Positions 20,244 to 22,754 of a stretch of DNA of 64,000 nucleotides are shown here, one piece after another. Each line of letters begins with the position of its first letter. The stretch's first letter is position 1. A program made the translations under genes and the position numbers. This stretch comes from an uncultured Gallionellaceae bacterium. GTDB lineage: Bacteria > Pseudomonadota > Gammaproteobacteria > Burkholderiales > Gallionellaceae. The notes below the pieces were generated by a model. The model ran no database searches, was not told the DNA's origin, and saw only the letters and a program-made list of their open reading frames with translations. The DNA lies in contig CAINCU010000067.1 of NCBI GenBank assembly GCA_903847155.1, positions 1 through 64,000 on the forward strand, read 5' to 3'.

Positions 20244-20690
20244 TTAACTAACCAGATAAGGCGCAGGATACCGCAATTTGAGCAGCAACGCTGTCTCGCG
20301 CTCCTCCATTGCTTCGGCCTCGCGCTTCTTTTCGTGATCGTAACCTTGCAGATGCAAGGCGGCGTGAATGGTGAGATGCGCGTAGTGCGCCAGCAATTCC
20401 TTGTCTTGCTCCTTGGCCTCGCGCGCCACTACCGGCGCGCAAATGACAACATCGCCATAAAGTACATCAGTATCGTCATAGACAAAGGTCAGCACATTGG
20501 TGGCGTAATCCTTGCCGCGATAACTCAGATTCAGCGCGCGCCCTTCGACTTCATCCACGATGCGCAACGCCATTTGTACATCCTGTTCCAGCGCGACTTT
20601 TACCCAGCGCCGGAGTTGCTGTCGCGTTGGCAGAATCTTGGCGTTGCTGGCGTATTGCACCGACAGTGAAAGTTTATGTAAGTTGCTCAT
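20244..20690 (-). CDS. ybeY: Endoribonuclease YbeY
   Basis: [28 protein letters not shown] (HxxxHxxGxDH motif). Confidence 0.95.
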
Positions 20691-22090
20691 GGTTGTGTCA
20701 CCAATTCACCGCGTAACGTGTGCATGGTTCCCGACAGAATTCGCACATCCACGAAACGCCCTAACATGCCGGGTGAGCCGGCAAAGTTCACCACGCGGTT
20801 GTTTTCAGTGCGTCCAGCCAGTTCCTGCGCGTTTTTCCGCGAAATATTTTCCACCAGCACCCGCTGTACTGTGCCACCCATTGCGTCGCTGACCTGCCGT
20901 TCCAGTTCGGCGATGCGCGCTTGCACACGATGCAGGCGCGCCAGTTTGGTTTCATTTGGCGTGTCGTCAGCCATCTCCGCCGCAGGCGTACCCGGACGCG
21001 GGCTGAAGATAAAACTGAAGCTGGCGTCGAAACCGACGTCGTCGATGAGCTTCAGAGTCGCCTCAAAATCAGCCTCGGTCTCACCGGGGAAGCCAATAAT
21101 GAAATCAGAAGTTATGGAAATATCTGGCCGTGCCGCGCGCAGTTTTCGCACGACTGATTTGTATTCCAGCGCGGTGTAGCCACGCTTCATCGCCGCCAGA
21201 ATTCGATCCGAGCCGGATTGCACCGGCAGATGCAAATGTCCGGCCAACTTGGGAATGGTCGCGTACAGATCGATCAAACGCTGCGACATTTCGCGCGGAT
21301 GCGAGGTGGTGAAGCGCAGACGCTGCACACTGGGCAATGCTGCCACCGCTTGCACCAGAAACGCGAAATCCACCGTATCGCCTTCTTCCGTTTCGCCCTG
21401 ATAGGCATTTACATTCTGTCCCAGCAAGGTGATCTCGCCCACGCCCTGCGCCGTCAGACTTAGCACCTCGCGTAGCACGTCTGCCAGCGGACGCGACATC
21501 TCTTCGCCGCGCGTATAGGGCACCACACAGTAGGTGCAGTATTTGCTGCATCCTTCCATGATGGAAACAAAAGCGGTGCCGTGTGAGGTTTGCGCGGCGG
21601 GCACGTGGTCGAATTTCTCGATCTCGGGAAAACTGATGTCTACTTGCTGCTTACCGCTCGCACGCCGCTCCGCAATAAGTTGCGGCAGACGATGCAAGGT
21701 TTGCGGGCCGAACACCACATCCACATAGGGCGCACGTTTAATAATGGTGTCGCCTTCCTGACTGGCCACGCAGCCGCCCACGCCGATCAACAACTTTGGA
21801 TTCCGTTGCTTCAAGGCTCGCGCGCGTCCCAGATCGGAAAATACTTTTTCCTCTGCTTTCTCACGAATTGAACACGTGTTGAACAAGATAACATCCGCCT
21901 CTTCCACATTATCGGTCAGCACCATCCCTTGATCGGCACACAGCACATCTGCCATCTTGTCCGAGTCGTACTCGTTCATCTGGCAACCATAGGTTTTTAT
22001 ATATAACTTTGTTTGCACATTTAATACCCTGAAGACTTGCTGACAATTGAGAGTCAACAACAAAGCCATTATTTTTCTGAGCCTTAGCAA
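20687..22090 (-). CDS. miaB: tRNA-2-methylthio-N6-dimethylallyladenosine synthase
   Basis: [22 protein letters not shown]...[22 protein letters not shown]; true start is probably near 22019. Confidence 0.95.
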
Positions 22091-22136
22091 TAATATTGGA
22101 ATATCTTATAAAAATACTCATATAATTAAAAAAGCA

Positions 22137-22227: not shown

Positions 22228-22326
22228 ATGTCATATATTGCAGACGTAGCATCCATCGGTACCGCGATATTCTCGGTAATTTTTGCAGTGTGGATCACTA
22301 TTCAGCTTTTCAGTAAAACAGAATAA
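22228..22326 (+). CDS. 32-aa single-TM micro-protein, paralogue 1
   Basis: MSYIADVASIGTAIFSVIFAVWITIQLFSKTE; RBS ggggagag; similar to the second ORF. Confidence 0.75.
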   Translation: MSYIADVASIGTAIFSVIFAVWITIQLFSKTE

Positions 22327-22521
22327 TCCACAACTAGTGGGAAGTTATTACTTGTAACGTCCCACATCAGTTCTCACTTGGCTTCCTTCTTCCCTACGGT
22401 GCATACCGTCAGGCTCTTGGTGTTATATTCAAAACTCTTGCCAATAAAATTTATTGTGCTACGATTTATTTTGTAGTTCCGTTGGTGTGTTTAATCTAAA
22501 TCCTGTAGGGAGGTGTCAAAA

Positions 22522-22620
22522 ATGTCATTTATCGCTGATATTGTAGCTCTCGGTTCGGCAGCATTTGTGGCAGTGTTTGCGTTGTGGATGTTGAAGCAAC
22601 TTTTCGCCGACAATAACTAA
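22522..22620 (+). CDS. 32-aa single-TM micro-protein, paralogue 2
   Basis: MSFIADIVALGSAAFVAVFALWMLKQLFADNN; RBS gggaggtg; 14/32 identical to the first; followed by a terminator. Confidence 0.78.
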   Translation: MSFIADIVALGSAAFVAVFALWMLKQLFADNN

Positions 22621-22636: not shown

Positions 22637-22684
22637 CCCCAAATAATAAAGCTCCAGCTCATGCTGGAGCTTTATTATTTGGGG
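22637..22684. terminator. Bidirectional terminator, perfect 22-bp inverted repeat with a 4-nt loop
   Basis: CCCCAAATAATAAAGCTCCAGC-TCAT-GCTGGAGCTTTATTATTTGGGG between convergent genes. Confidence 0.88.
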
Positions 22685-22754
22685 TAGGCGCTTATTACAC
22701 GGGTTAAAGTCTACATAATCGGCTACGGATGGCTTTGCCGTTTTGAGATTCAAT

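Follow-up and report, generated by a model that had tools for sequence, protein, structure and literature searches.

The original work on CcoM, a subunit of the cbb3 oxidase, is reportedly that of Kohlstaedt (2016). The Pseudomonas CcoM is 36 aa long with a single transmembrane (TM) segment (PMC8267372, PMC10433244). Similarly, the C. jejuni CcoY (Cj1485c) is a 33-aa protein with a single TM, and oxidase activity falls when it is deleted (PMC8267372). The terminal oxidase receiving electrons from Fe(II) plays a central part in neutrophilic iron oxidation, and standard annotation easily overlooks accessory subunits as small as about 30 aa.

Here, we describe two tandem microprotein genes of an uncultured Gallionellaceae bacterium, found in a window of 64,000 nucleotides (the whole stretch of DNA that was analysed). 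Their link to the proximal cbb3 oxidase is strong, and their products are probably a pair of isoforms of one accessory subunit of this oxidase, single-helix and lineage-specific, in the iron-oxidizing Gallionellaceae. The features of the locus are listed in Table 1.

Table 1. Microprotein locus and flanking features, in window positions.
Feature	Position	Strand	Description
miaB-like gene	20687..22090	-	divergent neighbour, conserved synteny marker; outside the microprotein system
Promoter of unit 1	22096..22126	+	-10 TATAAT (22121-22126) conserved, -35 TTGGAA possible; from an alignment of 31 relatives
Microprotein gene 1 (ORF1)	22228..22326	+	isoform 1, residue 25 not Lys; MSYIADVASIGTAIFSVIFAVWITIQLFSKTE; predicted single TM helix
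RNA hairpin just 3′ of the gene 1 stop	22337..22365	+	conserved; followed by a C/T-rich tract
Promoter of unit 2	22438..22465	+	TTGCCA-16-TACGAT, extended -10 (TGTGCTACGAT)
Gene 2 leader	22466..22521	+	conserved, GTTGGTGTGTTTAATC ... AGGGAGG, including the Shine-Dalgarno sequence
Microprotein gene 2 (ORF2)	22522..22620	+	isoform 2, Lys25; MSFIADIVALGSAAFVAVFALWMLKQLFADNN; predicted single TM helix
Intrinsic terminator after gene 2	22638..22685	+	GCTCCAGC..GCTGGAGC, almost symmetrical, flanked on either side by runs of A and T

The paralogous genes and their distribution

The preliminary description had reported two paralogous 32-aa ORFs, each with a Shine-Dalgarno sequence, separated by a hairpin and followed by a strong terminator. 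Both ORFs are present with the sequences quoted there, a direct count gives 14/32 identical residues, the Shine-Dalgarno sequences read GGGGAG and GGGAGG, and the terminator 3′ of ORF2 was confirmed. The hairpin is also real, with compensatory changes in relatives beyond those seen in shuffles. The source genome contains exactly two copies; tblastn within this genome (E=1e-15 for ORF1, 1.7e-5 for ORF2) and the family profile matches place the paralogy far beyond chance. Maximum hydropathy over 19 residues is 2.2 for the gene 1 product and 2.3 for that of gene 2. Neither Pfam nor NCBIfam holds a model that the microproteins match, and searches of Pfam, NCBIfam, PHROGs and the PDB returned nothing convincing.

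The family profile, run against 159 genomes from the GTDB family (E<=0.001), detects homologous short ORFs in 111 of them, as a tandem pair or a single copy. When 85,462 species genomes were searched with a narrower alignment of the family, all confident matches came from Gallionellaceae, with one weak 18-residue match elsewhere. Among about 750 sampled genomes (398 of the same order, including 13 Gallionellaceae, and 369 of the class), no match of comparable strength was detected outside the family. The homologues fall into 79 distinct locus types, 41 tandem pairs and 38 single copies; one of the latter (L157, Pseudoprimorskyibacter) is a chance match, leaving 37 singles in the counts below. 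Start-to-start distance in the 41 pairs is 261-308 bp (median 286). The distinct locus types contain 119 ORFs, of which 117 begin with ATG; every one encodes 30-33 aa. The family pattern is M[AS]xIA[DT]xxSxGTAxxAVxFS[LV]WMxKQLF. Conservation along one helical face was not significant (p=0.11).

Selection acts on the reading frame. Pooled in-frame pN/pS is 0.27 and 0.22, compared with 0.77-4.0 in the other two frames, and the dN/dS across orthologues that had been proposed as a check has a median of 0.17 for ORF1 and 0.14 for ORF2. The hairpin and the leader are conserved as well, as would fit chance ORFs or a conserved untranslated RNA; however, purifying selection is frame-specific, start, stop and Shine-Dalgarno sequence are kept, and the profile matches across 9 genera are at the protein level, which leaves that explanation a negligible probability. 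Both ORFs are genuine paralogous genes under purifying selection, as first suggested.

Promoters, isoforms and RNA elements

The two genes differ in their promoters. TATAAT lies 5′ of ORF1 in 39 of the 41 distinct pairs and 5′ of ORF2 in none, and a TGTGCTA-type extended -10 is found 5′ of ORF2 in 39 of the 41 and never 5′ of ORF1. The latter motif also precedes 32 of the 37 single-copy genes. Residue 25 follows the same division: Lys25 is never found in ORF1 proteins but occurs in 36/41 ORF2 proteins and 32/37 single copies. Since single copies are mostly of the ORF2 type in both residue 25 and promoter, sequence comparison indicates that this type (Lys25, TGTGCTA promoter) represents the basic gene, and ORF1 a second copy that was retained under separate control. 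In Sideroxydans, the microprotein is duplicated into two isoforms, each separately promoted. A simple two-gene operon is rejected, since conserved promoters of two distinct classes serve the two ORFs and a terminator is present even in the ccoN-adjacent copy described below. No conserved FNR/ANR site was found 5′ of the genes.

The hairpin after ORF1 shows changes on both sides at 7 of its 11 pairs in relatives, and its covariation score was reached by 0/500 shuffles. It is probably the 3′ end or a terminator element of transcript 1. The leader of ORF2-type genes (22466-22521 in the window, and the leaders of single copies) is conserved well past the Shine-Dalgarno sequence, as GTTGTGTTCAA...TTCTCTCGGGAGGAG, which suggests that post-transcriptional control may operate here; its predicted secondary structure is weak (4 pairs). 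The terminator motif ACTCCAGC/GCTGGAGT is kept in most of the 31 relatives, and an Rfam search gave only sub-threshold matches, to this terminator hairpin. A convergent tRNA-Met (CAT) lies just past the gene 2 terminator in many relatives (L003:806-882, L012:1947-2023, L022, L031, L064, L065); it is missing after 22685 in the genome of the window.

Co-occurrence and linkage with the proximal cbb3 oxidase

ccoN was profiled with TIGR00780 over the same 159 family genomes. Its classes were set by hand from these results, and distances between microgenes and ccoN were taken from the coordinates of the profile matches. The canonical ccoN, which scores E about 1e-190 to 1e-206 when complete, is taken here to be the form called "proximal" in PMC10734462 and PMC8788666. 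In the 95 high-quality genomes (>=90% complete, <=5% contaminated), microprotein and proximal ccoN are found together in 67 and are both absent from 26, with ccoN only in 2 and microprotein only in 0, the co-occurrence looked for in an accessory protein of the cbb3 oxidase. The two are 98% concordant, with Fisher p=2.5e-21, a statistic that ignores shared ancestry; the co-losses may go back to a handful of events (in genus g12 and in parts of g6 and g2). Within genus g6 alone, the counts are 35 both, 8 neither, 1 ccoN only and 0 microprotein only (p=5e-8). Proximal ccoN without a detectable microprotein occurs in the high-quality genomes G083 and G090; among the remaining genomes, many of the exceptions are due to incomplete MAGs. 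Genomes lacking the microprotein have only a divergent ccoN-like gene (E about 1e-62 to 1e-75), no ccoN, or, in three g2 genomes, a different, high-scoring ccoN type accompanied by a regular FixQ (e.g. G001, L168:5401-8637, E=1e-233). In the complete genome G155, which has both microprotein genes, ccoN is broken into two overlapping reading frames (C1:349393-350774), possibly through a frameshift or sequencing error.

Other respiratory complexes served as controls. The bc1 cytochrome b is 80% concordant with the microprotein, and this association disappears without genus g12 (p=0.32); the bd oxidase is 37% concordant (p=0.6), with CydA in 15 of the 67 microprotein-positive high-quality genomes. 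The phylogenetic profile rules out both as partners. Judging from gene content and PMC10734462, genus g12 presumably corresponds to Candidatus Nitrotoga, to which the family's nitrite oxidizers belong.

In most genomes, the pair lies divergent from miaB-ybeY-corC-like genes, 40-78 kb or more from ccoN. Microgenes that are not beside miaB are usually in the cbb3 cluster, by ccoN, ccoS, a DsbD_2-type protein or an SCO-like protein. The gene linkage looked for in a cbb3 accessory protein was found in 11 genomes of genera g3, g4 and g6, with the microgene <=2.5 kb from ccoN; most others are unlinked. In G010 and G007, the microgene is directly upstream of ccoN and co-directional, at 273 and 351 bp, and the G010 copy has its own promoter and terminator. 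In addition, an uncharacterised protein that matches nothing in Pfam, about 235 aa long and with the motif LPW.I.HPTPDTTRVFG (L165:15218-15919, minus strand; also L041, L048, L049, L052), is encoded next to ccoS in genomes resembling ES-1 and beside the single-copy microgene of genus g15. It is a candidate for a further cbb3 accessory protein.

The usual position beside miaB and not cco, the restriction to Gallionellaceae and the absence from g12 would all agree with a subunit or regulator of some other complex, for example a periplasmic electron-transfer module, that is merely co-inherited with the proximal cbb3 oxidase in iron oxidizers. We regard this as quite unlikely: bona fide Gallionella without proximal ccoN are also without the microprotein, yet keep bc1, and direct linkage of microgenes to cco genes recurs. 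An assembly or biogenesis factor would act only transiently while the proximal oxidase is built, in haem or copper insertion of the CcoG/H/I/S type. Such a role fits microgenes that often adjoin accessory genes (ccoS, DsbD_2 family, SCO-like) and lie outside ccoNOQP, and a phylogenetic profile cannot tell a subunit from an assembly factor. However, two paralogues under separate promoters are better suited to isoforms of a structural subunit, and one of the one-helix oxidase proteins known at about 35 aa, CcoM, is a stable subunit (PMC8267372). An assembly role is unlikely, though it deserves consideration.

Among the roles suggested in the preliminary description, the small subunit of a membrane complex is retained and narrowed to the proximal cbb3 oxidase. 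Strong purifying selection, conserved synteny and the strict co-occurrence with a single respiratory complex speak against a stress-induced or toxin-like peptide. As small hydrophobic paralogues in tandem, with flanks rich in hairpins, the genes do recall type I toxin-like or stress-induced peptides (Ldr/Ibs-like tandem genes), but with dN/dS of about 0.15 this reading is very improbable. A simple consensus scan of the opposite strand gave no sigma-70-like site over either ORF, only 22212-22184 and 22181-22153, facing miaB.

As the microproteins occur almost exactly where the proximal cbb3 oxidase does, a role as its small helper subunits is the most likely one. In Sideroxydans lithotrophicus ES-1, expression of proximal ccoN and ccoO is raised on Fe(II)-citrate, and that of their distal counterparts on thiosulfate (PMC8788666); the Fe(II)-linked oxidase is therefore probably the one that the microproteins serve. 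The helix of 30-33 aa would probably insert in the membrane with its Lys-bearing C-terminal end in the cytoplasm. It could pack via the conserved residues Ala5, Gly11, Thr12, Phe19, Trp22 and Gln26 against CcoN or CcoP, and the packed helix may stabilise or tune the oxidase, by analogy with CcoM in Pseudomonas or CcoY in Campylobacter. With isoform 1 under its own promoter, subunits could be exchanged with conditions.

If confirmed, the microproteins would be a new subunit family for cbb3 oxidases and a compact marker for the proximal oxidase that is Fe(II)-responsive in ES-1. They also illustrate that phylogenetic profiling can assign function to microproteins without a match in domain libraries.

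Comparison with known oxidase subunits

The microproteins resemble CcoM in being tiny predicted single-TM proteins linked to a cbb3 oxidase, with a short N-terminal and a charged C-terminal end, and in being present beside CcoQ without replacing it. With 30-33 aa and hydropathy of 2.2-2.3, they have the size (about 35 aa) and the one TM of CcoM. The P. stutzeri CcoM chain was found in PDB 5djq (chain N); it was fetched with a CcoM query sequence, and the returned chain itself was used in the comparison. The family profile scores this chain at 0.5 bits, and 566 of 1959 scored shuffles do as well, so the microproteins are not CcoM and have no detectable homology to it. No short CcoM-like ORF was found in the relatives. 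Unlike CcoM, the microproteins are duplicated and confined to Gallionellaceae.

CcoQ/FixQ (PF05545) is likewise a small single-TM cbb3 subunit, but the microproteins have no PF05545 match and their genes are not between ccoO and ccoP. In ES-1 (L165, L166), this interval is occupied by a separate ccoQ-like gene (PF05545 E=4e-4, below the cut-off); the microproteins are therefore not CcoQ. A shuffle test against ES-1 CcoQ gave no homology of the microproteins. The g2-type CcoQ scores a weak 3.8 bits with the microprotein profile, matched by 13 of 1632 scored shuffles, and this is not counted as homology.

CydX and CydX-like subunits of bd oxidases are also of about 30-40 aa with a single TM and belong to a terminal oxidase, but the microprotein does not track cydA. 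By description, CcoY is similar in size, in its one helix and in its tie to the cbb3 oxidase; it differs in being encoded inside the ccoNOQP-ccoXYZ-ccoH cluster. Finally, it is possible, and we propose it only tentatively, that in iron-oxidizing bacteria two paralogous supernumerary subunits of one cbb3 oxidase, under separate conserved promoters, are exchanged, tuning the same catalytic core to different electron supply or oxygen levels. If confirmed, this would be an instance of one respiratory enzyme whose subunit isoforms may switch, a counterpart in bacteria to the isoform switching known from mitochondrial cytochrome oxidase.
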